Positions 4,003 through 32,243 of a DNA stretch of 64,000 bases are shown one piece after another; position 1 is the stretch's first letter, and every line of letters starts with the position of its first letter. Under the pieces are notes generated by a model. It had not been told where the DNA came from. It worked only from the letters and a program-made list of their open reading frames with translations, and did no database searches. The translations under genes were made by a program, and so were the position numbers. The stretch spans positions 87,407 to 151,406 of the forward strand of contig NZ_QRZF01000013.1 of the NCBI RefSeq assembly GCF_003464595.1, given 5' to 3'. Origin of the DNA: Bacteroides intestinalis. Its GTDB lineage: Bacteria; Bacteroidota; Bacteroidia; Bacteroidales; Bacteroidaceae.

Positions 4003-4028
4003 GTAATTGGGGTTATCATATCCGTAAT
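4003..4028. promoter_or_regulatory. AraC operator copy A (upstream of AraC 2)
   Basis: Two half-sites CTGTAAT and CCGTAAT on the plus strand, GTAAT at 4003 and 4024, 21 bp apart. The 21 bases ending in the second half-site are identical to those of operator B at 9346 (TGGGGTTATCATATCC then GTAAT). The nearest edge is 32 bp upstream of the first base of the minus-strand -7 box, and the site is inverted relative to the AraC gene. No plus-strand -7 box follows at the usual 35-bp distance, so it is more likely an autoregulatory site than an activator site for a plus-strand gene. Confidence 0.75.
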
Positions 4029-4054
4029 AAGGGTACAAATTTCAGGATACAGCT

Positions 4055-4789
4055 TCAAAACAAAGACAACATTCGCATATCATCCAAAGCTTTCGGCTGA
4101 TATTTTATCTCACTAAATACTCCCGTAAAGCCGTCACCACGAGAACCGTGTGCCGCGAAACCTACTTTAATCTTCCCCTTCGTCTCAAGATTGAAATTCC
4201 TGACCATCAACCAGTTTTTATTGTCAGAGGAGTAGAAGAATGAATATTCCGATCCCCTCTTCACTACTGCCATATATGCGTAATCGCCTGCCGGCATGGA
4301 GTTGCAGTCATCAGAGAAAGTACGGGTGACAACGGAAACAATTGTCGGCTGAAGATGAACCGAGTTCTCATAACAGAACTTCGCCCAGACATCATCATCC
4401 TGATAAATAACAAGGGCAGCTACATCATAAACCGACTTCAATTTGCCTGTAACCCGTGCACTCATTGTAAAATCGGCTTCCGGCTCAAACAGGATAAGTG
4501 GAGCGTTCGCAACCTTCGACTTCCCGGAAGGGCTGTTGAAAAGATTCGTCTTTCCTGCCGCAGTTATGCTGATCCGGTCTTTTTCTATTTCATAATCAAC
4601 AGGGCGGTTGTAGATAATCAGATTGTGCGGAATAGTGGAAATACGCTTATTAATATCTGTCACCTGAAAGGATTTAGGCGTGTTATGCCAGAAAAGAAGA
4701 AAAGGAATAGAACTCAACTTGAACTGATTCTGCGCCGATGCAGGGATAGCTAACAGGAAAAATAAAACAAGATAGCTAAGTTTTTTCAT
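4055..4789 (-). CDS. Exported DUF1349-domain protein
   Basis: 244 residues with a clear Sec signal peptide (KKLSYLVLFFLLAIPASAQ, cleavage after about residue 19). The remainder matches the DUF1349 fold, a concanavalin-like beta-sandwich related to regulators and enzymes acting on sugars: DFTMSARVTG, the DDVWAKFCYE strand, and FFYSSDNKNWLMVR then KVGFAAHGSRGDGF. It is probably periplasmic. A -7 box (TATTTTTG on the minus strand) at 4820-4813 gives a short leader, so it is likely transcribed on its own. Binding partner unknown. Confidence 0.8.
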   Translation of the reverse strand: MKKLSYLVLFFLLAIPASAQNQFKLSSIPFLLFWHNTPKSFQVTDINKRISTIPHNLIIYNRPVDYEIEKDRISITAAGKTNLFNSPSGKSKVANAPLILFEPEADFTMSARVTGKLKSVYDVAALVIYQDDDVWAKFCYENSVHLQPTIVSVVTRTFSDDCNSMPAGDYAYMAVVKRGSEYSFFYSSDNKNWLMVRNFNLETKGKIKVGFAAHGSRGDGFTGVFSEIKYQPKALDDMRMLSLF

Positions 4790-4986
4790 AAATGTATTGT
4801 ATTAGTTTCGGACAAAAATAGACACATCCATCGGCTTTCTTCGTAAGAGTATACTAATTAAACGGAAAAGAAACTAAAACATCATTTACGATGCCTATTG
4901 GCGAACAGCAGGAACAGGTTATTCTTTATTCTCATAAACATTGCTGAACTTGTGCCTGTTTGGATGAAGATTTATTTTAGTACTGT

Positions 4987-6027
4987 ATGGAAGATAAAGA
5001 AAAGAAAGATGTTGTGTCGGCAGGCGATAACCTGACCGGCTACATGGAGACGGTAATTGCCGACTTGGAAAAAGAAGGGAAATTTCCGGCAGCACATGTT
5101 TACCGGAGTGTACTGCGCTCTTTTACCCGTTTTTGGAATGCCTCTGCACCGATGCGAGATGATCCGACATCAATGTCGAACGCCCTTGCACCAATACGGG
5201 ATGTCTTTACGCCGGAGCGACTAAAGGAGTATGAGACATGGCTAACGGAATGTGAATGCAGTCCGAACACTATTTCCACTTACATGCGCACGCTTCAGGC
5301 AGTTTATAACCGCTGGATGCCACCCGGCATGGTAGACTACAATCCGATATTGTTCAAGGAATTGTATACCAAAGTAGAGTCGCGCACCAAGCGGGCACTG
5401 ACGGCGGAACAGATGCGGCAGTTGGAGACTACGGATTTCAGCGCATTGTCGTTGCCCCAACAGCGTGTGCTGGCCTACTTCCTACTGATGTTCATGCTTC
5501 GCGGTATGCCTTTCATCGACCTGGCACATTTGCGGAAACAGGACTTGCAAGGCAGGCGTATCGTCTACCGGCGTCACAAGACAGGTAAATTGATGATGGT
5601 GGACGTGCCGCCGGACGCATTCCGGTTGCTACAGAAGTACAGAAACAGGGCTGAATCGGAGTATTTGTTCCCGATACTGAATGAGACATCTCCGGGTAAA
5701 GAACGGTATCATCTTTATCAGGATACACTGCGCCGCTTCAACCGGGAACTGGCACGGTTGATGAAGAAACTCCTGCCCGGCGTTTCCGTGAGTTCGTATA
5801 CCGCCCGCCATACGTGGGCGACACTGGCTTATCATAGCGGAACACCTCTTGGACTTATCAGCCAGTCGTTGGGACATTCGTCCATACGGGTGACGATGAG
5901 TTATCTGAAGCCCTTTGATGCGGAGGTGATAGACAAAGTAAACAGACAAGTGATTGCCTTAGTGAAAGGAAGTAAAAAGAAGAAAGTAGATAGCATCAAT
6001 ATGCTGTACGGCACTTTATTAAGGTGA
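4987..6027 (+). CDS. Tyrosine site-specific recombinase (invertase/Tsr type)
   Basis: 346 residues: an N-terminal SAM-like core-binding domain (about 15-130) and a C-terminal catalytic domain. Visible catalytic positions are R172 (MLRGMPFIDL), R274-H275 (YTARHTWATL, with Tyr where the box II His usually stands, common in Bacteroides enzymes), H297 (LGHSS) and the nucleophile Y306 (TMSYL). It is the size of the small Tsr recombinases that invert promoters in Bacteroides. Three bases after its stop lies the first arm of a perfect 20-bp inverted repeat, which makes it the obvious candidate to invert that segment. Confidence 0.9.
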   Translation: MEDKEKKDVVSAGDNLTGYMETVIADLEKEGKFPAAHVYRSVLRSFTRFWNASAPMRDDPTSMSNALAPIRDVFTPERLKEYETWLTECECSPNTISTYMRTLQAVYNRWMPPGMVDYNPILFKELYTKVESRTKRALTAEQMRQLETTDFSALSLPQQRVLAYFLLMFMLRGMPFIDLAHLRKQDLQGRRIVYRRHKTGKLMMVDVPPDAFRLLQKYRNRAESEYLFPILNETSPGKERYHLYQDTLRRFNRELARLMKKLLPGVSVSSYTARHTWATLAYHSGTPLGLISQSLGHSSIRVTMSYLKPFDAEVIDKVNRQVIALVKGSKKKKVDSINMLYGTLLR

Positions 6028-6029
6028 TA

Positions 6030-6329
6030 TTACTTGCATAGTAACGGCAAAAGTCACATACAAAGATGCATACTTTTTGACAAAAAAGCAAACAAATGCT
6101 AATAAAAAAGCTATTTAATCTTATATTTTACTATCTGGACTCCTCTTTACTATCCTAATAGATATACGAAATATAATTCCGCCTTCAATCCCTGAAAACG
6201 GATGCACTATTTGTGCGCCTTATTACCAAGACAACTTCTGTTTATATGCTCATTCCTGGGTTGGGTGCCGTCCAAAAACGCTTTTTCAACCTGCACCGCT
6301 ATAGTTGTCTGCCGTTACTATGCAAGTAA
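6030..6329. promoter_or_regulatory. Putative invertible segment bounded by perfect 20-bp inverted repeats
   Basis: TTACTTGCATAGTAACGGCA at 6030-6049 is repeated exactly as its reverse complement at 6310-6329, enclosing 260 bp (6050-6309) without a convincing gene. The arrangement, directly after a tyrosine recombinase gene, matches phase-variable promoters of Bacteroides. Inside, the best -7-like box (CATCTTTG on the minus strand, near 6060-6067, with a TTTG-like element about 20 bp upstream) points left, away from the gene at 6360; inversion would turn it to the right. If so, the present orientation is OFF for 6360 and beyond. The inversion is inferred; the repeats are seen. Confidence 0.8.
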
Positions 6330-6359
6330 CCCCACACAATCACATTAATTATACAGCTT

Positions 6360-6587
6360 ATGAAGAATCCAGAACTACACATCAAGAAAGGAGACCATGT
6401 ATGGGTACAGATATACAATGGACGGGATTATTCCTTTCATCCGCGCCTTGCGGAAGTGATTGCTACCTTGCATCTGCGCATCTCCTGTGAAGTAGTTCCT
6501 TATGTGGCACTGCGTTATCTGGACAACCGTAGCTGTGCATGCGTCCTTTATGAACAAATCAGTGGAATATGCGAAAAATCCCCCTAA
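6360..6587 (+). CDS. Hypothetical small protein downstream of invertible segment
   Basis: 75 residues (HIKKGDHVWVQIYNG near the N terminus), with an early segment resembling a small beta-barrel, then a hydrophobic stretch and two cysteines around CAC. I do not recognise the family. It is the first plus-strand ORF after the 20-bp inverted repeat, starting 30 bp beyond it, and so the first candidate to be switched by inversion. Codon use and the lack of homology I can recall leave some doubt that it is real. Confidence 0.45.
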   Translation: MKNPELHIKKGDHVWVQIYNGRDYSFHPRLAEVIATLHLRISCEVVPYVALRYLDNRSCACVLYEQISGICEKSP

Positions 6588-6677
6588 TCATCAACTGAAA
6601 TACTTTCAACAAGCAATAATTAAATAAATCCTGACAGTCAAGATGAACCGTAGAAGAGCCTAAAGACCGTTGTTGAT

Positions 6678-6765
6678 ACTTAGTACAAGTATGCTCGACA
6701 CTTAGCACAAGTATCAGGTATACTTAGCACAAGTATCGATGACACTTCTTATAAGTCTCCCACCT
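6678..6765 (+). repeat. Four tandem 22-bp units (iteron-like)
   Basis: Units begin at 6678, 6700, 6722 and 6744, exactly 22 bp apart. Units 1-3 share ACTTAGYACAAGTAT; each core is itself a palindrome (ACTT ... AAGT). The fourth is degenerate (ACTTCTTATAAGT). The array ends about 50 bp before the HU-like gene at 6813 and lies between the invertible segment and that gene. The 22-bp spacing puts the cores on nearly the same face of the helix, as expected for a protein-binding array. Confidence 0.8.
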
Positions 6766-6812
6766 CCTTCAGAATGGTCTACAGGGCATGTTTTACTTAA
6801 AAACCATAACGT

Positions 6813-7283
6813 ATGGCATTTTTCAAACCTATTTACAAAAAGATGTCCAAGAAGTGGCATCCCCAAGCCGTGAGCGTGGGTAAACCTATCGAAATGGACG
6901 AGCTTTGCAAGCAAATCGCCCTCATCTCCACCGTGAGCAGCGCCGACAGCAAGGCCACGCTCGAAGCCCTCGGCCTGGTGCTGGGAAGCAGTATGAACAC
7001 CGGTCGCACCGTCCATGTAGAAGGTCTGGGCACCTTCTACTACACCTGCGTCTCCAACGGCAAGGGCGTGGACAGCGCCGAGAAGGTGAACGCCAACCAA
7101 ATCTCCGGTACCCGCGTCCGCTTCATCCCCGAGTCGCGCCGCCAAGGTAGCGCCGTCACCCGCGCCCTCATCGGCGAGAATGTGACGTGGACCAACGTCA
7201 GCTCCATCAGTGGTCTTGACGGCACCGGTTCCGGTAAACCGAGCGGTGGAGACGGTGGCTTAGAAGAAGACCCGTTGGGATAA
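6813..7283 (+). CDS. HU/IHF-like DNA-binding protein (Bacteroides HU-HIG type)
   Basis: 156 residues. The opening MAFFKPIYKKM and KWHPQAVSVGKPI are diagnostic of the Bacteroides HU-like family, which fuses an HU/IHF core to a disordered glycine-rich tail; here the tail (from about residue 135) is GTGSGKPSGGDGG-like and acidic at the end. The HU beta-arm region lies at about 60-105 (GRTVHVEGLGTFYY). It probably bends or coats DNA. The gene is much richer in G+C at third positions than the flanking AT-rich DNA. It is followed by a strong hairpin, so it is probably monocistronic. Confidence 0.85.
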   Translation: MAFFKPIYKKMSKKWHPQAVSVGKPIEMDELCKQIALISTVSSADSKATLEALGLVLGSSMNTGRTVHVEGLGTFYYTCVSNGKGVDSAEKVNANQISGTRVRFIPESRRQGSAVTRALIGENVTWTNVSSISGLDGTGSGKPSGGDGGLEEDPLG

Positions 7284-7301
7284 GAAGACAACGCACCGCA
7301 C

Positions 7302-7367
7302 CTCTATTCAAGCAAAAACGCCCCGCTGCACAATGATGATGCAGCGGGGCGCTTTGCTTGAATAGAG
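7302..7367 (+). terminator. Long hairpin terminator after HU-like gene
   Basis: Arms 7302-7330 and 7340-7367 pair over about 27 bp (CTCTATTCAAGCAAA with TTTGCTTGAATAGAG at the base, CGCCCCGCTGCA with TGCAGCGGGGCG at the top; loop CAATGATGA). The inner part recurs in reverse-complement form at 9288-9329. Confidence 0.85.
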
Positions 7368-7411
7368 AATAATAAGTATCAGCCGTGACAGGAAGATAGC
7401 GAAATAAATGT

Positions 7412-7419
7412 TATCTTTG
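7412..7419 (+). promoter_or_regulatory. -7 promoter box for the AAA-ATPase gene
   Basis: TATCTTTG, perfect TAnnTTTG match, 59 bp before the ATG at 7478, giving a leader of roughly 50 nt. Confidence 0.65.
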
Positions 7420-7477
7420 TTGCCCTATGATAAGTATTAGGTTTTAAGTATTAAGCATTAAGTAACACCGTTGAATT

Positions 7478-9253
7478 ATGGAACAGAATAGCATCAAAGG
7501 CATCCCCTACGGACTGAGCGACTACGAGAGCCTCACCCGTGACAATTGTTACTACGTGGACAAGACCCACTTCATCCCCCTGATAGAGCAAGAAGCTCGC
7601 TACCTCTTCCTCATCCGCCCCCGCCGCTTCGGCAAGACGTTGCTCATCAACATGCTGGCCGCCTATTATGACATCAACAACGCCGACCACTTCAAGGAGC
7701 TCTTCGGAGAGCGGTGGATATACGAGCACCCAACGGCGCTGAGGGCGAAGTTCATGATACTCCGGTTCAACTTCTCCGCCGTCAACTCCACACCCGGAAG
7801 GCTGGAGGAATCGTTCGAGGAGCATTGCACAGGGCGTCTCGTAGAGTTTGCCGACAAGTACGAACACCTGTTCCAGCCCGGCTTCCGCCAAGAATTGATG
7901 AGCCGAACCACCGCTTCAACACGGCTGGATTACATCAATAGTACCGCCAGCCGCCTCCGCCTGCGCATCTACCTCATCATCGACGAGTACGACAACTTCA
8001 CCAATACCATCCTTTCCACCTTCGGCAAAGACGAGTATCGCAAGGCCACCCACGGCGAAGGCTTCTTCCGATACTTCTTCAACGTGCTCAAGTTCCTCAC
8101 CTCCGGCAACGGCATGGCACTGGAACGTATGTTTATCACCGGTGTAAGCCCCATCACACTGGACGACGTGACGAGCGGTTTCAATATCGGAACCAACATC
8201 ACTACCTCACCGTTGTTCAACGCCCTTGTGGGCTTCACCGAAACGGAACTGCGCACCATGTTGGAGTATTACCGCGACCGGGGCGCACTGACGATGGGCG
8301 TGGAAGAAATGATCGCCGACATGAAGCCCTGGTACGACAACTACCACTTCTCCGAGGAATGCCTGAACGAAAGCATGTACAACTCCGATATGACGCTCTA
8401 CTACATGAACAGTTGTCTGAAACTTGGCAAAAAGCCCAGAGAAATGGTGGACACCAACATCCGCACAGACTACAACAAGTTGCGCCACCTCATCCGGATA
8501 GACCACGAACTGGACGCCAACTTCTCCGTCATCCGCGAAATTGTGGAAAACGGACGGACATCAGGCACCATCAGCAGCGCCTTCTCCGTGGAGAAGATGG
8601 TGGACGAGAATAACTTCAAGTCATTGCTCTACTACTTCGGCCTACTCAGTATCCGGGGCGTGGAGGAAGGAGAAACTGTGCTTGCCATCCCTAACAACAC
8701 CGTGCGCGAGCAGTTCTACAACTACCTGACGGAGGCTTACGCAGATGAAGACATCTTCAGCCTGAACATCTCCACCCTGGGTAAGCTGGCAAAAGAAATG
8801 GCATACCGTGCCGACTGGCAACCCCTCTTCACCTACATCGCCACCGAACTGGAGAAGCAGAGCCGCATCCGCGAATTCATCGACGGTGAAGCGCACGTGA
8901 AGGGGTTTCTTCTTGCCTATCTCAATATGACGAACTTCTACCAGCTGATGCCCGAATATGAACTGGGAAAGGGCTACGCCGACTTCTACTTCCGCCCCAA
9001 TCCGCAGATATCGGATATCCGCTACGCCTATCTGATGGAGGTGAAGTACCTGAAGCGCGACGAGCCCGAAAGCCGCATCGCCACGCTGAAGGAAGAAGCC
9101 CGGACGCAATTGCTGAAGTACGCTTCGGACGAGATTGTCGCACAGACTATCGGCGGAGCGCAACTTAAACTGATTACCATCGTTTTCCGTGGTTGGGAGA
9201 TTGTAGGCATGGAGGAGACGGATAAATTATTCAACGAGAAACGCGACTCTTGA
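7478..9253 (+). CDS. AAA-ATPase-like / PD-(D/E)XK nuclease-family protein
   Basis: 591 residues of the family with an N-terminal AAA-ATPase-like domain (PF09820 type) and a C-terminal PD-(D/E)XK nuclease-like domain (PF08011/DUF1703 type). The P-loop variant RPRRFGKT lies at 47-54, a Walker B YLIIDEYDNF near 164-173, and the nuclease-like signature is D in GYADFYFRP (near 500) plus the E-x-K of LMEVKYLKRDE (near 519). These proteins occur in many near-identical copies in Bacteroides genomes and their role is unsettled (mobile cargo, defence or repair). GC-rich codon use differs from the neighbours. Mirror-image hairpins lie on both sides of the gene. Confidence 0.88.
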   Translation: MEQNSIKGIPYGLSDYESLTRDNCYYVDKTHFIPLIEQEARYLFLIRPRRFGKTLLINMLAAYYDINNADHFKELFGERWIYEHPTALRAKFMILRFNFSAVNSTPGRLEESFEEHCTGRLVEFADKYEHLFQPGFRQELMSRTTASTRLDYINSTASRLRLRIYLIIDEYDNFTNTILSTFGKDEYRKATHGEGFFRYFFNVLKFLTSGNGMALERMFITGVSPITLDDVTSGFNIGTNITTSPLFNALVGFTETELRTMLEYYRDRGALTMGVEEMIADMKPWYDNYHFSEECLNESMYNSDMTLYYMNSCLKLGKKPREMVDTNIRTDYNKLRHLIRIDHELDANFSVIREIVENGRTSGTISSAFSVEKMVDENNFKSLLYYFGLLSIRGVEEGETVLAIPNNTVREQFYNYLTEAYADEDIFSLNISTLGKLAKEMAYRADWQPLFTYIATELEKQSRIREFIDGEAHVKGFLLAYLNMTNFYQLMPEYELGKGYADFYFRPNPQISDIRYAYLMEVKYLKRDEPESRIATLKEEARTQLLKYASDEIVAQTIGGAQLKLITIVFRGWEIVGMEETDKLFNEKRDS

Positions 9254-9287
9254 CGATACTATTCTGTTGCGCCATATTTCAACTTTA

Positions 9288-9329
9288 AAAAGCGCCCCGC
9301 TGCATCATCATCGTGCAGCGGGGCGCTTT
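9288..9329 (+). terminator. Hairpin terminator after AAA-ATPase gene
   Basis: AAAGCGCCCCGCTGCA pairs perfectly with TGCAGCGGGGCGCTTT around a 9-base loop. Its loop and stem are the reverse complement of the hairpin at 7302-7367, with a single change across about 35 bp. Confidence 0.85.
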
Positions 9330-9345
9330 GCATTTACGAGAAACT

Positions 9346-9409
9346 GTATTTGGGGTTATCATATCCGTAATTTATCTACAAAGGAAATGCTACGTTTCCC
9401 CGACCTTTG
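9346..9409 (+). promoter_or_regulatory. AraC operator B and promoter of the 9429 operon
   Basis: Half-sites CTGTATT (GTATT at 9346) and CCGTAAT (GTAAT at 9367) are 21 bp apart. The -7-like box GACCTTTG starts at 9402, 35 bp after the second half-site. The same 21/35 geometry is found at 12530, 27667 and 32096. The start of transcription would be near 9416, which places the ATG at 9429 with a very short leader. Confidence 0.8.
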
Positions 9410-9428
9410 CAGTACAAAAAAGAAATAT

Positions 9429-10625
9429 ATGAAGAATAAATTCAAACTCAATTCAAGTACCCTACTTGTATTCATCCTCACAACCGGTGTATTCGGAATA
9501 ATCAATACCGAAATGGGTGTGATTGGAATTTTGCCCCTGATAGCCGAGAACTTTCAAGTAACTGTTCCGGAAGCGGGTTGGACGGTTAGTATATTTGCAC
9601 TGGTAGTAGCAATATCCGCTCCCATCACCCCTTTACTGTTTTCGGGTATCAACCGGAAAAAGGTGATGATACTGGCACTGGGATTATTTACATTAAGTAA
9701 TATCATCTCCATGATGACCACTAATTTTACGGCATTGCTGATATCCCGTGCACTTCCGGCATTCCTTCATCCGGTATATGTATCTATGGCTTTCACGGTA
9801 GCGGCAGCATCTGTCAGTAAAGAGAAGGCACCAAAGGCGGTAGCAAAAGTATTCATCGGCGTATCAGCAGGTATGGTGCTGGGAGTACCGGTGACAAGCT
9901 ACATTGCAAGCGAAGTTTCATATTCAATGGGCATGTTATTCTTCACCGTTGTAAATGCATTGGTACTGGTTGCAACCATCCTGTTTGTACCTTCCATGCC
10001 GGTCAAAGAGAAACTGTCCTATGGTACACAACTCGGTGTATTAAAAAAGAAAGTAGTCTGGTACTCCATTCTCGCTATCACGCTGATTAACGGAGCCTTA
10101 TTCGGGTTCTTCAGCTATATGTCTGATTACTTGAAGACAATCACCGGGGTTTCATACACCGTAATCAGTACAATGCTACTGATTTATGGACTGGCCAATA
10201 TTATAGGAAATGTAATAGCCGGAAAGCAACTGGCGGTCAATCCGGTACGTAGCATGATAATGATTCCTTTGACATTACTGGCCTTTTATATAGGAGTATT
10301 CGCTTTTGGGGAATGGCTGATGGCAATGGCAGTTATCATTCTGATCCTGGGAATTCTGGCGGGATATGGACAGAACACCATGCAATATATGATAACGCAT
10401 GCCGCTCCCGAAGCACCGGATTTTGCCAACGGACTGTATTTGTTGTCTGCCAATCTCGGTACTACAGTAGGTGCAGCCGTCTGCGGATTGTTTATCACCT
10501 TCTTCAATACGCGTTATTCCGTCATCGGCTCTTTGATATTCCTTGTTTTAAGCATTGTATTCGTCGTATTAAGAATACGTGCCACACAATCCGAAAGACA
10601 AATCAGAATGGAAATGGCTGCATAA
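9429..10625 (+). CDS. MFS efflux transporter (DHA1, AraJ/SotB-like)
   Basis: 398 residues with twelve predicted membrane helices and no soluble domain. Signatures of the drug/sugar efflux branch of the major facilitator superfamily are NTEMGVIGILPLI in helix 1, RALPAFLHPVYVSMA in the middle of the N half and GMVLGVPVTSYI in helix 5. I reject the longer frame from 9267 because the operator and -7 box lie inside it; the ATG at 9429 follows the predicted start of transcription by about 13 nt. It is first in an operon with a flavodoxin-fold reductase and an iron alcohol dehydrogenase, so it may expel a toxic small molecule or sugar-like product; the substrate is unknown. Confidence 0.9.
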   Translation: MKNKFKLNSSTLLVFILTTGVFGIINTEMGVIGILPLIAENFQVTVPEAGWTVSIFALVVAISAPITPLLFSGINRKKVMILALGLFTLSNIISMMTTNFTALLISRALPAFLHPVYVSMAFTVAAASVSKEKAPKAVAKVFIGVSAGMVLGVPVTSYIASEVSYSMGMLFFTVVNALVLVATILFVPSMPVKEKLSYGTQLGVLKKKVVWYSILAITLINGALFGFFSYMSDYLKTITGVSYTVISTMLLIYGLANIIGNVIAGKQLAVNPVRSMIMIPLTLLAFYIGVFAFGEWLMAMAVIILILGILAGYGQNTMQYMITHAAPEAPDFANGLYLLSANLGTTVGAAVCGLFITFFNTRYSVIGSLIFLVLSIVFVVLRIRATQSERQIRMEMAA

Positions 10626-10659
10626 GAAATAAGAAGTGGTTTTAACTTTATAATATAAA

Positions 10660-11208
10660 ATGATTATGACTAAGAAAGTATTGATTTTATCATCCAGCCC
10701 TCGTCGTGGCGGAAACTCCGACACCCTTTGCAACGAATTTATGCGAGGAGCAATTGAAAGTGGTAACGAAGCAGAAAAGGTTTTCCTGCGTGACAAGACA
10801 ATCCATTATTGCACAGGATGCAGCACATGTAGCCTGCACGGAAAACCTTGCCCGCAGAAAGACGATGCGGCAGAAATTATAGAGAAGATGGTGGCAGCCG
10901 ATGTAATAGTTATGGCTACACCCGTTTATTTCTACACGATGAGTGCACAGATGAAAACGTTGATAGACCGTTGCTGTGGGCTCTATACGGAGATGAAGAA
11001 TAAGGAATTTTATTTCATTGTCACCGCTGCCGAAGATGATCGGAAACTGATGGAACGTACCGTGGACACTTTCCAGGGATTTCTGGATTGCCTGGAAAGT
11101 CCAACCATCAAAGGAGTTGTGTATGGAACCGGAGTTTGGCATGTGGGCGAAATAAAAGATAAACCAGCCCTACGGGAAGCTTATGAAATGGGAAAAGAAA
11201 TAGAATAA
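10660..11208 (+). CDS. Flavodoxin-fold NAD(P)H-dependent FMN reductase family
   Basis: 182 residues beginning KKVLILSSSPRRGGNSDTL, the FMN phosphate-binding loop of the NADPH-dependent FMN reductase/iron-sulfur flavoprotein group, followed by a CTGCSTC motif near residue 50 typical of that group and the TPVYFYTMSAQMKTLIDR segment that lines the flavin site. Cytoplasmic. It is the second gene of the 9429-12411 operon (34-bp gap before, 27-bp gap after). Probably reduces quinones, nitro compounds or another electrophile with FMN. ATG at 10660 and at 10666 are both possible starts. Confidence 0.85.
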   Translation: MIMTKKVLILSSSPRRGGNSDTLCNEFMRGAIESGNEAEKVFLRDKTIHYCTGCSTCSLHGKPCPQKDDAAEIIEKMVAADVIVMATPVYFYTMSAQMKTLIDRCCGLYTEMKNKEFYFIVTAAEDDRKLMERTVDTFQGFLDCLESPTIKGVVYGTGVWHVGEIKDKPALREAYEMGKEIE

Positions 11209-11235
11209 TTTATAGGATTTAAAAAAAGAAGAATA

Positions 11236-12411
11236 ATGAGTCATTTTAGAATTTACATTCCTACCCGCACCTTGTTTGGTGCCGGTATGGTGAAGGAACT
11301 TCACAATCAGCAATTGCCCGGAAAGAAAGCAATGATTGTTATTTCAAACGGTCGCTCTACCAAGGATAACGGATATCTGAATACAGTAGAAAGCGAACTC
11401 CAGCAAGCAGGTGTTGAAACTGCCGTATTTGACCAGGTAGAAGCCAATCCGTTAAAATCGACCGTAATGGCGGGAGCCGCTTTTGCCAAGGAAAACAATT
11501 GCGACTTTTTAGTTGCCCTGGGTGGTGGAAGCGTAATGGACGCCTCCAAAGCGATGGCATTCATGGCCACGAATCCCGGCGATGTATGGGATTACATCAG
11601 TGGTGGAACCGGAAAAGGACAAACGATGGTAAACAAGCCCCTACCCCTGGTTTGCATTACCACCACTGCCGGAACAGGTTCCGAAGCAGATCAATGGGGC
11701 GTTATCACCAATGATGAAACCAATGAGAAAATAGGCTTTGGCGGTTATGATGAACTCTTCCCGATACTGTCTATTGTCGATCCGGAGTTGATGAAATCTG
11801 TTCCGCCTAAGTTCACGGCCTATCAGGGATTTGATGCGTTGTTCCACTCTACAGAATGTTATATCTCTAAAACTGCCAGTCTGATGAGCGATATGTACGC
11901 ATTGACCGCTATTGAAAATGTAGCTAAATATCTACCGCGTGCAGTTGCCAACGGAGCTGATATGGAGGCTCGTGAGAGAGTCGCATTCGCCAATAATCTG
12001 TCCGGTGCGGTAATGACCTTTTGTAGCACTACTGCCGAACACTCTTTAGAGCACGCTATGAGCGCTTATCATCAGGAGCTGCCACATGGTGCCGGATTGA
12101 TTATGATCTCCAAAGCATTCTATGAATTCTTTATAGAGAAGCATGCCTGTGATGAACGATTCATCAAAATGGCACAAGCGATGGGTATGCCGGAAGCTGA
12201 CAAACCGGAAGACTTTATCACCATGCTGGTAAAACTACAGGAAGCTTGTGGAGTGGCAAACCTGAAGATGAGTGATTATGGATTTACGCCCGATGAATTT
12301 GATACCCTTGCCACCAATGCCAAGGAAACAATGGGCAAATTATTCCTTGCCAACCCTTACGAATTGAAGCATGAGGATTGCGTGGAGATTTACCGCAAAT
12401 CGTTTCGTTAA
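11236..12411 (+). CDS. Iron-containing alcohol dehydrogenase
   Basis: 391 residues of the group III (Fe-type) alcohol dehydrogenase family. The nucleotide-binding GGGSVMDASK is near residue 96, TTTAGTGSEADQW near 138, and the metal ligands are the Asp of YQGFDALFHSTE, its His, and the His residues in TAEHSLEHAMS and ELPHGAGL. Likely an NAD(P)H-dependent reductase of aldehydes or ketones. It ends the three-gene operon controlled by operator B. An AraC gene, an iron alcohol dehydrogenase and an efflux pump together suggest aldehyde or electrophile detoxification; the substrate is inferred, not seen. Confidence 0.92.
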   Translation: MSHFRIYIPTRTLFGAGMVKELHNQQLPGKKAMIVISNGRSTKDNGYLNTVESELQQAGVETAVFDQVEANPLKSTVMAGAAFAKENNCDFLVALGGGSVMDASKAMAFMATNPGDVWDYISGGTGKGQTMVNKPLPLVCITTTAGTGSEADQWGVITNDETNEKIGFGGYDELFPILSIVDPELMKSVPPKFTAYQGFDALFHSTECYISKTASLMSDMYALTAIENVAKYLPRAVANGADMEARERVAFANNLSGAVMTFCSTTAEHSLEHAMSAYHQELPHGAGLIMISKAFYEFFIEKHACDERFIKMAQAMGMPEADKPEDFITMLVKLQEACGVANLKMSDYGFTPDEFDTLATNAKETMGKLFLANPYELKHEDCVEIYRKSFR

Positions 12412-12505: not shown

Positions 12506-12529
12506 TTTTGTACCCGATAAACAGAATCT

Positions 12530-12593
12530 GTAATCCGGGTTATTATGTCCGTAATCCGTCTACAAAGAGTATCCCATTTACGCCGTATTTTTG
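12530..12593 (+). promoter_or_regulatory. AraC operator C and promoter of the DUF3737 operon
   Basis: Half-sites CTGTAAT and CCGTAAT (GTAAT at 12530 and 12551, 21 bp apart) with a perfect -7 box TATTTTTG beginning at 12586, 35 bp beyond the second half-site. The spacer GGGTTATTATGT closely follows operators A and B. Start of transcription expected near 12600. Confidence 0.85.
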
Positions 12594-13514: not shown

Positions 13515-13520
13515 TTAGGT

Positions 13521-25099: not shown

Positions 25100-25109
25100 T
25101 TATCTTTGC
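25100..25109. other. Putative attL core TTATCTTTGC
   Basis: Ten bases identical to those at 37027-37036. Left flank ends ...CTTTTCA. Includes a TAnnTTTG box, which is why a chance match between two promoters is a real alternative. Confidence 0.5.
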
Positions 25110-25225
25110 CGAGGATAAGAAACTTTAATGTATCTGTCTGAATGACAGCGTAGAGTGGAGATTAAGAAAGTTGTCGGTAACGATTTGGCAACCGTGTAAC
25201 TGCGCTGAACTGCTGCGCTTTGCAT
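25100..25225 (-). CDS. 41-residue ORF at the element's left end
   Basis: ATG at 25225-25223, stop TAA at 25102-25100 inside the putative attL core. It begins MQSAAVQRSYTVAKSL. A perfect -7 box TATATTTG lies on the minus strand at 25252-25245, 20 bp before the ATG. No known family; it could be a leader, a remnant of a gene cut by the end of the element, or chance. The promoter and short leader argue that it is transcribed. Confidence 0.35.
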   Translation of the reverse strand: MQSAAVQRSYTVAKSLPTTFLISTLRCHSDRYIKVSYPRQR

Positions 25226-25331
25226 CTCGTCGAACAACTCTATGCAAATATAGCGTTTTTCTTGGAAATAGCAAAATCGACGACTGTGTTAATGCAAAAT
25301 GCGGACAGAATCTTCCATCCGCATTATTTAA

Positions 25332-25925: not shown

Positions 25926-26165
25926 AAATGTTCGTTTTATAAGTAAATAAATCAGTTCCTTCGAGTTTGTTGAAGTGGGACTCGGTGGAGATTTATTTCT
26001 TATAAAGCGAACAGCTATCTGCTATTTTATTTTTCGCCGAATAGGTTGTATCGCTTTGTGTAGAGAGAATATGCTTTTATTCTTCATTTTTCTATTACAG
26101 TTAAATATTTGTTATTCTGGATTATATAAGAATTATAAATTATCTAATAACAGATTTATCAAAAC

Positions 26166-26771
26166 TCATTTTAGCAACCACGTCTGTACTGTTTTCAGTG
26201 CTTGTGACTGCGAGTTTTGTGCGGTTGTGCCTTTTATGGCAAGCCCTGCACTTACCGTAGCTCCTTTGCAAGCATCTTTCAGTTTACGTTCCGTACCCGA
26301 CAGCCCGCTGCCCTCGTGCGTGCAGAACGGAACGACAGTTTTCCCGTTCCAATTATGCTTCTCGATAAAGGTATAGACTGCCATCGGCATATCTCCCCAC
26401 CAGTTGGGATACCCCAAGAAGATAATATCGTAATCCTCGACTTTCACATCGCCTTTTATTTCCGGGCGTGTATTGTTTTCTTTCTCCGTTTTCGCTATCT
26501 CCACGCAAGCCTTGTACTCATCCGGGTAAGGCTTGACCGTTTCTATCCGGAACAACTTGCCTCCGCTCTCTTTCGCAATCATTTCGGCAATGATATGGGT
26601 ATTTCCCTTTTCGATATTTCCCACCGCGTAGTTCTCACCTGTCCGGGAGAAGAAAACCACAAGCACTTTCTTACGATTTTTCATATCTGTTGTTTGAGAC
26701 GTATTACCCTGCGCATGAACGGTAAACGCACATGCGCAAAGCATCATTAAAATTGATATTATATTTTTCAT
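26166..26771 (-). CDS. Exported flavodoxin-domain protein
   Basis: 201 residues: a Sec signal peptide (KNIISILMMLCACAFTVHAQ, about residues 2-21) then a flavodoxin domain with the FMN loop FFSRTGENY near 40, a PYPDEYKACVEIAKTE stretch and the flavin-site GYPNWWGDMPMAVYTF near 120. Absence of a lipobox Cys after the signal suggests a soluble periplasmic protein, although SignalP-like certainty is not possible here. Lies 21 bp downstream of the SDR gene and is probably cotranscribed. A periplasmic flavodoxin would need a redox partner there; none is evident. Confidence 0.85.
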   Translation of the reverse strand: MKNIISILMMLCACAFTVHAQGNTSQTTDMKNRKKVLVVFFSRTGENYAVGNIEKGNTHIIAEMIAKESGGKLFRIETVKPYPDEYKACVEIAKTEKENNTRPEIKGDVKVEDYDIIFLGYPNWWGDMPMAVYTFIEKHNWNGKTVVPFCTHEGSGLSGTERKLKDACKGATVSAGLAIKGTTAQNSQSQALKTVQTWLLK

Positions 26772-26792
26772 AACTCCATTGATTCAATCATT

Positions 26793-27632
26793 TCATTTTT
26801 CGGGTTTCAACGCTCCATAAAAGTAGGATGCCGTGGCGCCGCCATCGATCAGGAAATCGGCTCCTGTGATAAACGCTCCCCGGTCACTCATCAGCAGCTC
26901 GGCAACGTTAGCTATTTCATCCGCCGTACCGGGACGCCCTGCCGGACACTTGGCGAACATATTCTTGTAAAAATCACCTCGCGGCCCGTTGAACTCATCC
27001 AATGCCAGCGGGGTTACGACAATCCCCGGAGAGATGGAGTTGATACGGGCATCCCGTTCGCCCCATTTCACGGCCTCGGCCATTACACGTTTCACGTTGC
27101 AGCGTTTGGCCATCTGGTAAGCGTGCAGCGTATCCCGGATATTTTGAGGTTGAAGAATATCGAGCGAGAGCAATCCCTCTGTCGGTGTGCAGGCCAGTTG
27201 CTCGTCCTCGTCGGCAGTGAGTGCAGGCATCCGGTATCCCGACTGGCTGGAAATCGTAACGCCGACACCGCCCTCTTTGATAACTTTACCGACTTCTTCA
27301 AGCAAAACGGCAGTTCCGTACAAGTCCACTTTCAATATGGTCTCCATCGAAGCCTGCGATGGCGATACGCCCGCCGCATTGACAAGCATCGAAATCTCAC
27401 CGTGTTTCCGGGCCTCGGCAATCAGGCTCAATATGGATGCTCTGGATGAAAGATCCATTTCAACGGGTATTGCATCGAACCCGGCATTATTCATGATTCG
27501 GGCAATATCCTCCGCATTTTCCATCTTCTTATCACCCACGACTATTTTCTTTCCATAGCCTATGCGACGGGCTATTGCCATACCGATCTGACCGGCTCCG
27601 GTCAATATCATTACATCTTGTTTCATTTTCAA
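26793..27632 (-). CDS. Short-chain dehydrogenase/reductase
   Basis: 279 residues, Rossmann fold. ILTGAGQIGMAIAR is the TGxxxGxG NAD(P) loop near residue 10, LVNAAG near 84 (NxAG), the catalytic YQMAK (YxxxK) near 172, and SPGIVVTPL near 200. C-terminal FITGADFLIDGGA is the standard ending. Substrate not determined; the insert before the Tyr (about 120-165) is longer than usual. First gene of a two-gene unit behind operator D. Confidence 0.9.
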   Translation of the reverse strand: MKMKQDVMILTGAGQIGMAIARRIGYGKKIVVGDKKMENAEDIARIMNNAGFDAIPVEMDLSSRASILSLIAEARKHGEISMLVNAAGVSPSQASMETILKVDLYGTAVLLEEVGKVIKEGGVGVTISSQSGYRMPALTADEDEQLACTPTEGLLSLDILQPQNIRDTLHAYQMAKRCNVKRVMAEAVKWGERDARINSISPGIVVTPLALDEFNGPRGDFYKNMFAKCPAGRPGTADEIANVAELLMSDRGAFITGADFLIDGGATASYFYGALKPEK

Positions 27633-27666
27633 AATCTATTACTTTAATTATTATTCTTAGTAATTA

Positions 27667-27730
27667 CAAAATTACGGTATTACCGTTTGCCCGACCTTAA
27701 CCCTATTACAGAGTATCTTACCGAAATTAC
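27667..27730 (-). promoter_or_regulatory. AraC operator D and promoter of the SDR gene
   Basis: On the minus strand, half-sites CTGTAAT start with GTAAT at 27730 and 27709, 21 bp apart, separated by TTCGGTAAGATACT. The -7 box TAATTTTG begins at 27674, exactly 35 bp beyond the second GTAAT. The downstream ATG is at 27632. Confidence 0.85.
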
Positions 27731-27753
27731 AGATTGTCAGGCTGCTTGTCGTC

Positions 27754-29000
27754 TCATGTTTTACGGCGTATATACAGGGCAAATAAACCGATACTACCGG
27801 ATAACACGAGGAATACGATTCCCACAATAAAGATAAAACCGTAGGAAGTTGCATCGGCTAAAAGTCCCCAGCCCCCGGCAGCGATAGCCCCGCCTATGGC
27901 GATAGCCATCGACACGTTGGAGTAAATCTGGGCATAATTCTTATTGCCAAAAACAGAACGTACCAACATCGGTGTCTGTACCGTCACTCCAGCGTAGGCC
28001 CAACCGAAAAGGAAACCGCCGATAATGGAAAGTGTTATCCCGATGTGCCCCATCAACAACAGCACCAAGCCTGATATACCCAGTCCGATGGTTGTAAGAA
28101 TACCATACAACGTACTCCGGTCGTTTATCATTCCCAGCAAGACTTTGCCGACCGTGACACCAACCATAACCGCGGAGGCTACAAACGATGCCTGCTCCAC
28201 TGAAAACAGAATTTCCTGCATATACGTCGGAACGAACACATTAAGCGTTGCCGTCGCGTTCATTAGAAACGCGAATACTATCAACCCGTAGAAGATGGGC
28301 ATCCTGACAGCATGGGCATACTCGACTCCATCTCCCGTGGATTGTTTACCGTCTGATCGAGAGGGAACAGTGTCAGACAATTCGGCCTCTCCATAAGGTT
28401 TCAGTCCCTTGTCTTCGGGATAGTCGCGCAGGAGCAATCCCAAGATCGGAGTAACAATCACCATTATTATAATTCCGAATATCAAGTATGTCATGCGCCA
28501 GCCATATTCCGTAATAAGGAATCCCGCCAGCGGATTGAACAGTACGCCCCCGATACCGGAACCGGCACTGCAAATACCGATAAAAACCCCATACGGGTTT
28601 TGAACCAACGGTTCAGCAGAGTGGGAAATCCGAGATAGAGTAAAAAAGCCAGCATTATACCGAATACGGCTCCCGTTACATAGAATTGCCACACGGCACT
28701 GAACAGCGACATCATCATGAAAGTGGCGGCTATCATCGCAGAACAGAGAGTAAGGATCACACGGGCACTGTATTTTTCCAACAGTTTCCCGGCGAAAGAG
28801 AGTGTCAGCGTGGAAAGCAGAAAATTCAGCGACATATATAATCCGAATTTACCGACATCGACTCCTAATTCCTCGCTGACCGGCTTGTAGAAAATGCCCG
28901 CGCAACTCATTACCAATCCTACAATGACAAACATGATCAGGAAACAGCATCCCACGATCACATAACCGTAATGAAAACCGATGGTTTTATGACTTTTCAT
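27754..29000 (-). pseudogene. MFS transporter (OFA type), frameshifted
   Basis: Two overlapping frames form one transporter. The N-terminal part (29000 down to about 28590) begins HKTIGFHYGYVIVGCCFL and reaches LLNRWFKTRMG; the C-terminal part continues VFIGICSAGSGIGGVLFNPLAG in another frame. The join lies in a run of four G on the minus strand (28590-28587); five G would give a continuous reading frame of 415 residues, the usual length for oxalate/formate-antiporter-like MFS proteins. Either the gene is inactivated, the tract is phase variable, or the sequence has an error. It lies in the operon with the alcohol dehydrogenases. Confidence 0.85.
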
Positions 29001-29018
29001 ACTCTGCCTCCTTTCTCT

Positions 29019-30188
29019 CTATTGACACATTTCAAAAATTCGCTCTATATCTTCTTGTGCAAGCGGTTTGAATCCGGGTAACACACCATTGCCACAGGCT
29101 TTTCTCGCCATCACGGGAAAATCTTCGGCACGGATGCCGACCTCGGTGAAAGTACGCTTCAACCCCAGTGTGCCGAACAGGAACTCCGATAGCTTTTCGA
29201 TGCTCTGCCGGGCAATAACCATCGGTTCTTGTCTTTCGTCGATACCGAACACGTTTACCCCGAACTGTACATATTTGGAAACGGTGCTTTCATCCAAGCA
29301 ATACTCCATCCAACGGGGCGTGAGTATGGCGAGACCGAGCCCGTGAGTAATATCATAAATGGCAGACAACTCGTGTTCCATCGGATGGCAACTCCATGCC
29401 TGCCGTTTACCACCATTCACGAATCCATTGATAGCCCACGAGGAAGTCCACATCAGGTTAGCACGGGCTTCGTAATTCTCCGGTTCCCGCATGGCTATCG
29501 GTGCATACTTGATGATGGTACGCATCATACCCTCCATAAAGTAGTCCAGCATGTAGAGGTCTTGTTCCATGTTGAAATATACTTCCATGATATGCGACAT
29601 CATGTCTGCCGCACCGCAGGCTGTCTGGTAAGGACTGACCGTATAGGTGAGGGTCGGATCGAGAAACGATACTTTCGGAAGCATGGGCGGAGCCAACCGC
29701 CCGATCTTGTCTTGTGTCTCCGGATTACTGATGACGCCACCGGCATCCATCTCCGAGCCGGTGGCAGCCAGTGTCAATACCGTTATAACCGGCAATGCTT
29801 TTTCAATCGGCGCCCAGTTCTCCGAAAGAAAATCCCACGGGTCATGTTCCACACAAGCTCCTGCTGCCATAAATTTGGTGGCATCCAATGTGGAGCCGCC
29901 ACCTACTGCCAGCAACACGTCTATTTTTTCATCCTTACAAATCCGCACACCTTTTCTTACCGATTCGATACGGGGATTGGGTTCTATACCCGATAACTCG
30001 AATACTTCCAAGCCGTTTTTTTCAATTTCGGATATGACGGTATCATACAATCCGGTTTTCTTGATAGAACCTCCACCGTAAGTCAGCAATACACGTTTGC
30101 CGAACTTGCTTAACTCTTTACCGAGATGTTGCAACTGGTTTTCTCCGAAATAAACTTTGACAGGAATGTCATATATAAAACTATTCAT
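29019..30188 (-). CDS. Iron-containing alcohol dehydrogenase (YqhD/BDH type)
   Basis: 389 residues. GKRVLLTYGGGSIKKTGLY near 30, LAVGGGSTLDATKFMAAG near 92, LAATGSEMDAGGVISN near 140, metal ligands in GAADMMSHIMEVYF, CHPMEHELSAIYD and ITHGLGLAIL. It is a second member, on the element, of the same family as the gene at 23836 and very likely reduces aldehydes with NADPH. Gap of 18 bp to the MFS pseudogene and 32 bp to the Zn-dependent enzyme upstream: one operon from operator E is likely. Confidence 0.9.
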   Translation of the reverse strand: MNSFIYDIPVKVYFGENQLQHLGKELSKFGKRVLLTYGGGSIKKTGLYDTVISEIEKNGLEVFELSGIEPNPRIESVRKGVRICKDEKIDVLLAVGGGSTLDATKFMAAGACVEHDPWDFLSENWAPIEKALPVITVLTLAATGSEMDAGGVISNPETQDKIGRLAPPMLPKVSFLDPTLTYTVSPYQTACGAADMMSHIMEVYFNMEQDLYMLDYFMEGMMRTIIKYAPIAMREPENYEARANLMWTSSWAINGFVNGGKRQAWSCHPMEHELSAIYDITHGLGLAILTPRWMEYCLDESTVSKYVQFGVNVFGIDERQEPMVIARQSIEKLSEFLFGTLGLKRTFTEVGIRAEDFPVMARKACGNGVLPGFKPLAQEDIERIFEMCQ

Positions 30189-30220
30189 AATTTTCTTTTT
30201 TTGATAGGTGAATACTCTTT

Positions 30221-31360
30221 TTACTTCATTGTACGCATATCTATCACATAGCGGAACTTGACCTTACCGTCCAATACGTTTTGATAAGCCTTGTCGATTT
30301 CTTCACCGTTGGCCTTGATTACCTCTACTTCCGGATAGATATTGTGTTCTACGGAATAATCCAGCATCTCTTGTGTTTCCTTGATACCGCCTATTTGAGA
30401 ACCGAATACCTTACGAGGCCCCTGAAATATAAGGTCTGCAACAGACAAAGACGGCATATTGCGAAACGCAGGCAACCCGACAATCCCAAACTGGCCGTTG
30501 AGTTTCAGCATCTTCATATACATGGTCGGATCATATTTGGCAGGAATGGTCGATAGGATAAAATCGAAGGTTCTGTCCAGTCCTTTCAAGTCTTCCGGAT
30601 TATTTACATTCACATACCGGGAGGCTCCCATACGCATGGCGTCCTCACGCTTTTCTTCGGTGATGTCGAATACCGTCACTTCAGCTCCGAGCGATACGGC
30701 ATACTGGACACCCATGTGCCCCAAACCGCCGAAACCGGCAATGCCGACCTTATCGCCTCTCTTGACACCGGCCTGCATGATCGGCGAGTAGGAGGTGATT
30801 CCAGCGCAAAGCAACGGGGCGACTTTGGTGATGTCCGCATTTTCAGGTATCCGTATGGCAAAATCCTCGGCTACCACATAGGTATCGGAATATCCGCCTT
30901 GCGTGTGTTCATTGCCGTTGAAACGGTCTATACCGTGATAAGTCATGATGGCTCCTTCCTCGCAGTACTGCTCCAAATCATGCTCGCAGGCATCGCAGTG
31001 GCGGCATGAACCGATCATACAGCCGATACCGGCATAATCACCGACCTTGAAGCGGGTTACATTTTTACCTACTGCAACCACACGACCCGCTATTTCGTGA
31101 CCGGGAACCATAGGGTATTCCTCCGCACCCCAGTCGGCGAACACGTGGTGCAGGTCGCTATGGCAGATTCCGGCATACAATATATCAATCTGAATGTCAT
31201 TATCGCCGACGGCGTGTCGGCTGAAATTATAAGGCTGAAAATGCCCTTTCTCCTCGAAGACGGCGAATCCTTTAGCCGGAATACGTCCGTCGTTGTTTTG
31301 TGCAAACATACTCATGGTTATAAATGTTAATGCTGTTATTAAAATCATCTTGGTTTTCAT
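30221..31360 (-). CDS. Zn-dependent alcohol dehydrogenase (YahK/CAD type) with signal peptide
   Basis: 379 residues. The first 21 (KTKMILITALTFITMSMFAQ) form a typical Sec signal peptide, followed by a complete medium-chain dehydrogenase: catalytic-zinc motif GICHSDLHH near 64, VPGHEIAGRVVAVG near 85, structural-zinc cysteines in CMIGSCRHCDACEHDLEQYC near 114, and nucleotide loop GFGGLGHMG near 207. The body resembles YahK/cinnamyl alcohol dehydrogenases, NADPH-dependent aldehyde reductases that are normally cytoplasmic. Export would separate it from NADPH, so either the leader is not cleaved or the enzyme uses another donor. I keep this start because the upstream gap to 31401 is too short for a better one. 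Confidence 0.85.
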   Translation of the reverse strand: MKTKMILITALTFITMSMFAQNNDGRIPAKGFAVFEEKGHFQPYNFSRHAVGDNDIQIDILYAGICHSDLHHVFADWGAEEYPMVPGHEIAGRVVAVGKNVTRFKVGDYAGIGCMIGSCRHCDACEHDLEQYCEEGAIMTYHGIDRFNGNEHTQGGYSDTYVVAEDFAIRIPENADITKVAPLLCAGITSYSPIMQAGVKRGDKVGIAGFGGLGHMGVQYAVSLGAEVTVFDITEEKREDAMRMGASRYVNVNNPEDLKGLDRTFDFILSTIPAKYDPTMYMKMLKLNGQFGIVGLPAFRNMPSLSVADLIFQGPRKVFGSQIGGIKETQEMLDYSVEHNIYPEVEVIKANGEEIDKAYQNVLDGKVKFRYVIDMRTMK

Positions 31361-31400
31361 ACGAATACTTATTTTTACTTTATATATTTATTCTGTTTTC

Positions 31401-32069
31401 TTATTCGATAATACCGATTCTTTCGAGCCATGCTTCCACATCGTCGTGCGCATTAAAAGAGTCGGTTCCCTGCACGGCAAGACCGCTTAATACGGTATTA
31501 TCCGGATAATAGTTCCGTGCCAACCGTTCGCTGTCGCCCAAGCCACTGCCCGCATGGGTAGAAAAAGGGATCAGCACTTTACCGGCCAGATCATAAGATT
31601 CGTAGAATGTCCTTATAATCATCGGTGCTGTTCCATGCCAGATAGGATTTCCGATAAAAACGGTATCGTAATCATCGAGATTCTCTATCTTGTTCTGAAT
31701 GGCAGGACGGGCATCATTATCGTACTCTTCCCGTGCTATGGCGACTGTTTCCTGATAATTGTCCGGATAGGGAACAACCGGAAGAATTTCAAAACGGTCT
31801 CCGCCCGTCAAGTCTGCAATATAACCTGCGACACGGGCAGTATGTCCGATGTCGAGCCACTGGTTGGGATAATTATATCCCGTTCGTGAGAAATAGACGA
31901 TCAGGATTTTACCCGTTTGGATACCGGGGTTATCCGGGTCATCATTCGGCGTATCGGGAGTTTCTGTTCCCGAAAAGTCGGTAGAATCTGCAACCGGATC
32001 ATCCCCTCCGCAGGAAGTAAAGACGAAGCCGGACAATAAGCTGAAAACTACAATAAGGAATTTCTTCAT
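31401..32069 (-). CDS. Flavodoxin-domain lipoprotein
   Basis: 222 residues. A lipobox GFVFTSC places the lipid-bearing Cys near residue 20; the following CGGDDPVAD has acidic residues at +3/+4 as in Bacteroides lipoprotein export signals, so it may be surface exposed. A low-complexity acidic linker (about 22-50) leads to a flavodoxin domain with FSRTGYNYPNQW near 60 and GNPIWHGTAPMIIRTF near 140. First gene after operator E; probably heads the 31401-27754 operon. A second exported flavodoxin lies at 26166. Confidence 0.85.
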   Translation of the reverse strand: MKKFLIVVFSLLSGFVFTSCGGDDPVADSTDFSGTETPDTPNDDPDNPGIQTGKILIVYFSRTGYNYPNQWLDIGHTARVAGYIADLTGGDRFEILPVVPYPDNYQETVAIAREEYDNDARPAIQNKIENLDDYDTVFIGNPIWHGTAPMIIRTFYESYDLAGKVLIPFSTHAGSGLGDSERLARNYYPDNTVLSGLAVQGTDSFNAHDDVEAWLERIGIIE

Positions 32070-32095
32070 AACTGATTTGTTTTATTATTCTGCTG

Positions 32096-32159
32096 CAAAA
32101 TTAACCGGGTTCTTTGGGATGGAACTTAAACGGATTACAGATTGGCTTACCGAAATTAC
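32096..32159 (-). promoter_or_regulatory. AraC operator E and promoter of the flavodoxin-ADH operon
   Basis: Minus-strand half-sites CTGTAAT (GTAAT at 32159 and 32138, 21 bp apart), spacer TTCGGTAAGCCAAT, and a -7 box TAATTTTG starting at 32103, 35 bp beyond the second GTAAT. Same geometry as B, C and D. Target ATG is 32069. Confidence 0.88.
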
Positions 32160-32217
32160 AGATTGTTATCGTTCATAATTTCAAAGTGTTACGACAACAA
32201 TCCAACGTCTTACACGG

Positions 32218-32243
32218 ATTACGGATTCTCTTACCGAAATTAC
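32218..32243. promoter_or_regulatory. AraC operator F (upstream of AraC 3)
   Basis: Two half-sites AATCCGTAAT on the minus strand, GTAAT at 32243 and 32222, 21 bp apart with the spacer TTCGGTAAGAG. It lies 84 bp (4 x 21) from operator E, is inverted relative to the AraC gene at 32316, and ends 43 bp before that gene's -7 box. Probably autoregulatory or a helper site for E. Confidence 0.8.

Follow-up and report, generated by a model that had tools for sequence, protein, structure and literature searches.

A 64,000-nt stretch of Bacteroides intestinalis DNA (NZ_QRZF01000013.1, positions 87,407–151,406; hereafter the window, i.e. the whole stretch analyzed) carries six copies of one operator, YGTAAT-N15-YGTAAT, divided between a chromosomal locus and a mobile element. 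This six-copy operator is real and conserved, and its sequence is that of a tandem 21-bp repeat of the AraC type, with the second half-site over the -33 region of the promoter. We consider it very probable that two AraC-type regulators, AraC2 on the chromosome and AraC3 on the element, use these tandem operators to activate class II promoters of reductase operons and to regulate their own genes, and that they work like YqhC-yqhD-dkgA.

Operator copies and their geometry

The original prediction had placed six half-site pairs in the window, and all six are read directly in the sequence, three on each strand. Four belong to operons, i.e. the operon of a major facilitator superfamily (MFS) transporter, flavin mononucleotide (FMN) reductase and iron alcohol dehydrogenase (operator 9345–9371, +), the DUF3737 operon (12529–12555, +), a short-chain dehydrogenase/reductase (SDR) operon (27705–27731, −), and a flavodoxin operon (32134–32160, −). 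The other two lie on the araC2 side (4002–4028, +) and the araC3 side (32218–32244, −) and are proposed to be autoregulatory. All six copies are found by both sequence scan and weight matrix; the first half-site at 9345 reads TGTATT. The original prediction put a -7 box 35 bp beyond the second GTAAT, and all four operon promoters have one at that distance, counted from the first base of this GTAAT: GACCTTTG at 9402–9409 (+), TATTTTTG at 12586–12593 (+), and TAATTTTG both at 27667–27674 (−, SDR operon) and at 32096–32103 (−, flavodoxin operon). The expected TAnnTTTG is not complete in the box at 9402, whose GA form recurs at a related promoter in locus L146 and also in L075 and L078. No TAnnTTTG stands at the 35-bp distance on the far side of the 4002 and 32218 copies.

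Chance, or a motif general to Bacteroides promoters, is a highly improbable source of these sites. In 300 first-order Markov simulations of the window, exact pairs occur 0.057 times on average (maximum 2), compared with 5 observed, and none of the 300 contains an exact pair followed at 30 bp by a [TG]AnnTTTG box, compared with 3 such pairs observed (the inexact 9345 copy is uncounted). A weight matrix built from 69 same-genus sites, with the window and L031 excluded, ranks the sites at 12528, 9344, 32096, and 27667 highest in the window (63.8, 55.4, 46.1, and 39.4 bits), followed by those at 4001 and 32180 (4.3 and 4.0 bits). The next-best window site scores −9.8 bits and the best of 20 simulations −6.8, and the matrix scan finds no seventh copy in the window. 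What speaks for chance is that mismatched GTAAT pairs are common: the pair alone, with one mismatch allowed, occurs 251 times in the whole genome G001 and 235 times in the control, which here and below is the reversed sequence or pattern. A two-mismatch scan of the window likewise gives 45 matches where 26.7 are expected (0 of 100 shuffles reached 45), evidently background for the most part. Neither the loose scan nor the pair alone in G001 is very informative; the specificity resides in the complete architecture.

Genome-wide scans were made in relatives, i.e. 37 same-genus genomes and 24 from other families. The pattern had been predicted to exceed chance in Bacteroides promoters, and this holds: with the -7 box, at fixed spacing and with one mismatch, there are 73 matches in 25 of the 37 same-genus genomes and 4 in the reversed control. 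The 24 other-family genomes give 6 matches and 7 in the control. When the gaps are allowed to vary (10–20 bp between half-sites and 25–35 bp to the -7 box, 121 combinations, all 61 genomes), the same-genus genomes yield 55 matches compared with 19 for the reversed pattern. Of these 55, 39 fall at a single combination, 15/30, while the remaining 16 are scattered over 15 of the 120 others with none above 2. Among 79 operator sites, 71 have their midpoint outside open reading frames (ORFs), although only ~17% of those loci lies outside ORFs, and 65 are followed by a same-strand gene within 260 bp.

The 39 exact sites are also conserved at columns that the pattern does not require. Specifically, C directly precedes the second YGTAAT in 39/39, positions +4 to +7 after the first GTAAT are G, G, T, and A in 36, 34, 37, and 27 sites, and positions +4, +6, +7, and +8 after the second are T, T, A, and C in 37, 38, 36, and 32. 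By these columns, every half-site pairs its GTAAT box with another box that is centered on a TA core. The original prediction had described two spacer subtypes; both motif types are present, i.e. GGTTAT with TCTACA (TACAA at 4002) in the chromosomal type and GGTAAG with TTAAG or GTAAG in the element type, and the column counts identify them as the second recognition box of each half-site, not as spacer.

The second box of half-site 2 lies 22–27 bp before the -7 box, and with a constant 30 bp to that box the second half-site covers the -33 region, where the 39 exact sites show TMTAC, not TTTG. The Bacteroides promoter consensus is TAnnTTTG at -7 and TTTG at -33 (PMC7366714). The second box of half-site 2 thus sits where the -33 element would be, an arrangement typical of class II AraC activators such as E. 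coli AraC at araI1-I2. Each operator would be bound by two AraC2 or AraC3 protomers pointing the same way, and each protomer would recognize one GTAAT box plus one further box, GGTWA for half-site 1 and TMTACA or TTAAG for half-site 2. At the four operon promoters the downstream protomer would lie over -33, 30 bp from the -7 box, so that class II activation would replace the -33 element.

Regulators and their own promoters

The operator accompanies one group of AraC genes. Named genomes hold at least 520 AraC relatives, and the 80 best of these were taken. They come from Bacteroides, Phocaeicola, Parabacteroides, Paraprevotella, Alistipes, Muribaculaceae, and other groups, and 79 of them have sufficient upstream sequence. 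The operator occurs within 300 bp upstream, in either orientation, in 45 of these 79 (29 exact), compared with 5 and 0 in the control; in a larger set of 155 distinct AraC genes it occurs at 73, compared with 4. The one-mismatch operator is present in all 22 genomes of the genus whose AraC is 50% or more identical, compared with 3 of the 15 that lack such an AraC (Fisher 2.5e-7), and for the exact operator the counts are 17/22 and 2/15 (Fisher 1.9e-4).

The chromosomal regulator gene, araC2, lies at 3032–3946 (−), and araC3 of the element, whose product is 58% identical to AraC2, at 32316–33224 (+). A third paralogue, araC1 (2139–3035, −), overlaps the araC2 ORF by 4 bp and is thus probably cotranscribed with it; AraC1 is 44–49% identical to AraC2 and AraC3. 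All three proteins match HTH_18 and HTH_AraC (PF12833 and PF00165) above the Pfam cutoff. In a comparison of the DNA-binding domains, the recognition helices of AraC2 and AraC3 are nearly identical and those of AraC1 have diverged. An AlphaFold model of AraC2 (pLDDT 87.5) predicts a cupin-like regulatory and dimerization domain and an AraC DNA-binding domain. Searched with Foldseek as separate domains, the model matches the RhaR domain (TMt up to 0.74), AraC 2arc (0.66–0.67), and AraC-type DNA-binding domains; at full length its best matches are Rns and ToxT, with a TM of only about 0.3 and an rmsd of about 20 Å. Across 116 aligned AraC relatives (AraC3 numbering), cysteines are conserved at 57 or 58 (116/116), 173 (115/116), and 142 (106/116), which suggests redox or electrophile sensing; the signal would perhaps be sensed through these residues.

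The copies at 4002 and 32218 lie 55 and 71 bp before the araC2 and araC3 starts and point away from araC. The -7 boxes of these genes are TATCTTTG (3964–3971, −), 30 bp from the operator edge, and TATATTTG (32286–32293, +), 41 bp from it. The larger set includes 63 regulator-side operators. In 47 of them a TAnnTTTG follows within 70 bp on the araC side, measured from the operator edge at 29–31 bp in 8 cases, at 38–42 bp in 38, and at 51 bp in 1. An IQ-TREE tree of 46 proteins requires 4 changes for the 30-bp class, at least 3 of them forced by well-supported branches. Such recurrent shifts by one helical turn suggest that the operator has to keep the same helix face relative to the araC promoter, indicating that the two copies, facing away and helix-phased to the araC -7 box, probably autoregulate araC2 and araC3, by activation or repression. 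Seven relatives (L151, L152, L155, L157, L158, L162, and L163) have, instead or in addition, an operator with one GTAAC half-site aimed at araC and a -7 box at 30 bp, which by its sequence is a self-activation layout.

It is conceivable, if improbable, that AraC2 and AraC3 act mainly as repressors, or that the araC-side copies loop with the promoter copies. In E. coli, araO2 and araI1 form such loops. Short separations are indeed found, with the regulator-side and second copies 84 bp apart at araC3 and 141–326 bp apart in L147–L150; in the window, the copy nearest to the araC2-side one is 5.3 kb away. We set looping aside because the five short separations (84, 197, 141, 326, and 170 bp) share no helical phase, and repression is disfavored by the second half-site, which covers -33 with TMTAC in place of TTTG, the layout of an activator.

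A somewhat less probable alternative is that the sites belong to another AraC-type protein, e.g. a hybrid two-component system (HTCS) regulator, and that the one-component AraC genes are mere neighbors. Bacteroides HTCS operators likewise consist of direct repeats, with an average of 21 bp (PMC3878776). In addition, at 42 of the 79 operator sites the analyzed locus (mostly 9–20 kb) encodes no AraC of this group, so other AraC-type proteins could use them. Against this alternative stand the association of the operator with these AraC genes across many Bacteroidales, where its position upstream of araC is similar, and its distribution among same-genus genomes with and without such an AraC.

Like the sites just mentioned, several other observations weigh against assigning the operator to AraC2 and AraC3. 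An AraC of this group lies within 300 bp of only 16 of the 79 operator sites, and at the thresholds applied both operator forms are missing from 76 of the 155 AraC relatives; 42 of these 76 are at identities of at least 56%, several with worn operator versions that are visible by eye and uncounted, and 34 are below, many of them AraC1-like. The Fisher tests ignore shared ancestry, the one-mismatch matches in G024 and G030 look spurious, and G010, counted as AraC-positive, has its AraC gene in pieces with stops. The 9345 copy has a nonconsensus half-site and -7 box, a TAnnTTTG within 70 bp is missing at 16 of the 63 regulator-side operators, and a less filtered set includes -7 boxes off phase at 19 and 49 bp, both at second pairs of a locus. 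Comparative genomics, through the upstream association, the genus-level distribution, and the fixed -33 overlay, supports the earlier view that AraC paralogues 2 and 3 use this operator as their activator site, which remains our predicted assignment; the 4002 and 32218 copies are regulator-side and in phase with the araC promoters.

The second operator form has GTGTTTT in place of the GTAAT box. With the 21-bp repeat kept and two mismatches allowed, this version is found at 9 of the 155 AraC genes and at none in the control; 7 of the 9 carriers are AraC3-like (74–78%), and the other two, L161 and L136, look like chance. Of 201 family genomes, one, G459, matches a stricter GTGTTTT pattern; it has an AraC of this kind, as does G500, where the pattern is not matched. 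GTGTTTT-like boxes replace GTAAT upstream of the AraC3-like genes in L242 and L244–L249, and in one half-site only in L243. At these loci the operator code has changed naturally with the recognition helices almost unchanged. A search for specificity residues of this variant gave 22 discriminating columns, but all eight proteins are close AraC3 relatives (74–79%), so the comparison is confounded and was rejected.

Target operons and related systems

By Pfam and NCBIfam, the first chromosomal target operon (9429–12411, +) encodes the MFS transporter, the FMN reductase, and the iron alcohol dehydrogenase. According to domain models, the second (12651–14678, +) encodes the DUF3737 protein and a PatB-family C-S lyase of aminotransferase fold. 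On the element, similar models give an SDR oxidoreductase and a flavodoxin (26166–27632, −), and a flavodoxin, a zinc alcohol dehydrogenase, an iron alcohol dehydrogenase, and an MFS transporter (27754–32069, −). The best NCBIfam models are Ahr for the zinc enzyme and PRK15138, which we take to be YqhD, for the iron enzyme, both below the curated cutoffs. The transporter of this last operon is split into two overlapping ORFs (27754–29000), which, being in different frames, look frameshifted.

Reductases, flavodoxins, the SDR enzyme, and MFS transporters in these operons make inducible detoxification of reactive carbonyls or quinones, through reduction and export, the likely role of the regulon in the window. 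The case for this role is weak, because targets are mixed, including deoxyxylulose phosphate (DXP) synthase, DUF3737, Fe-S/TonB operons, and hydrolases. The first genes behind 64 sites, tallied over the 25 commonest of 45 families, are led by DUF3737 (9), alpha/beta hydrolases (9), and the FMN reductase/flavodoxin fold (8), followed by aldo-keto reductase (6), DXP synthase (6), Fe-S ferredoxin-type proteins (5), Flavodoxin_4 (4), and the metallo-beta-lactamase fold (4). In L084, a DkgA-like aldo-keto reductase, with a model match below cutoff, stands behind the operator. The DXP synthase leading 6 of the 64 operons (e.g. L075:4671–6428, named by NCBIfam) is unexpected for a stress-type regulator.

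One close parallel is E. coli AraC at araI1-I2, where two 17-bp half-sites of two boxes each form a direct repeat 21 bp apart and the downstream one overlaps -35. The window operator shares the 21-bp direct repeat, the two-box half-sites, and the placement of the downstream half-site over -35/-33, and a cupin plus DNA-binding domain is predicted here. It differs in operator sequence, promoter type (-7/-33), targets, and signal, and comes without arabinose genes. The Bacteroides HTCS regulators share the genus, an AraC-type DNA-binding domain, and direct repeats averaging 21 bp (PMC3878776); this geometry is standard for AraC-type domains, HTCS included. Unlike HTCS proteins, which combine sensor, histidine kinase, and receiver in one chain, the window AraCs are one-component proteins of 302–304 aa with only AraC domains in Pfam and no kinase or receiver, and their targets are reductases and transporters, not polysaccharide loci.

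In E. coli, YqhC is an AraC/XylS activator divergent from yqhDE, a system that includes a YqhD-type reductase and an aldo-keto reductase (PMC5297802). In the window, araC3 is divergent from the operon with the iron alcohol dehydrogenase nearest PRK15138 and the zinc enzyme nearest Ahr, both matches being below cutoff. Unlike YqhC, the present system has several paralogues, several operons, and one copy on a mobile element, and no YqhC model is among the NCBIfam matches of the window proteins.

As an AraC-type direct-repeat operator, the site is thus of a familiar kind, described for Bacteroides HTCS (PMC3878776), and its novelty is modest. New are the regulon together with its regulators, the phasing of the operator on the helix toward araC, and a code common to host and element. 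We found no paper on this operator in listings of the CC-licensed PMC literature, which does not allow us to claim its absence elsewhere, and one passage of PMC11253607 gives nothing on site geometry. An operator of fixed geometry can now be predicted for apparently uncharacterized one-component AraC regulators of many Bacteroidales, the regulons of this AraC group would become readable from genomes without expression data, and gut Bacteroides gain a candidate regulator/promoter pair.

The mobile element and neighboring DNA

The nearest genome compared, G001, matches the window at 96–98% up to 21204, where the match stops; an RteC homologue and a tyrosine integrase lie beyond. In Phocaeicola faecalis (L225), araC3 is 96% identical. 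The DNA left of its operator corresponds to window 26089–27735 (94.6%), i.e. the SDR-flavodoxin operon and its promoter, that to the right corresponds to 32217–33505 (94.2%), and the two matches overlap within the operator. The SDR operon and araC3 are thus joined there at a single mosaic operator, just where in the window two operators in direct repeat flank an operon block of 4.5 kb. The block, which holds the second operon, was thus gained or lost at the operator. Among 12 AraC3 relatives at 69–79%, 9 have neighbors of SDR and/or flavodoxin type that resemble the genes of the SDR operon (one of the 9 with a zinc alcohol dehydrogenase too), so the evidence leans toward a gain in the window's lineage, with this seam as a single example.

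Because the AraC2 and AraC3 recognition helices are nearly identical, each regulator may also drive the other's promoters. Tentatively, then, the element's AraC regulon may use the host operator code, with each AraC driving the other's promoters, the element joining a resident stress response on arrival, and operators serving as seams of operon exchange. Whether element and host regulons are cross-wired in this way becomes directly testable. A DUF1349 block at the chromosomal locus was considered as a second seam event and rejected, as its side-by-side operators correspond to the layout of L147–L150.

A plasmid or phage home for the element was also rejected: plasmids give no near DNA match of 26100–33600, and AraC3 has relatives in 61 plasmid records and 5 phage records, all <60% identical at best. 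Viral contigs give one partial AraC3 match at 57%. Parts of 27600–32330 are matched in 16 of 399 family genomes, none spanning the region among the matches listed.

Between araC2 and its operon lies an island (4942–9313) with a tyrosine integrase, an HU-like protein (recognized by eye), and a large ORF. The island is absent at this place in B. timonensis (L146) and larger in G001, with an extra ORF of 825 aa. The same GC-rich, terminator-like hairpin sequence is present at 7315–7355 and 9289–9329.

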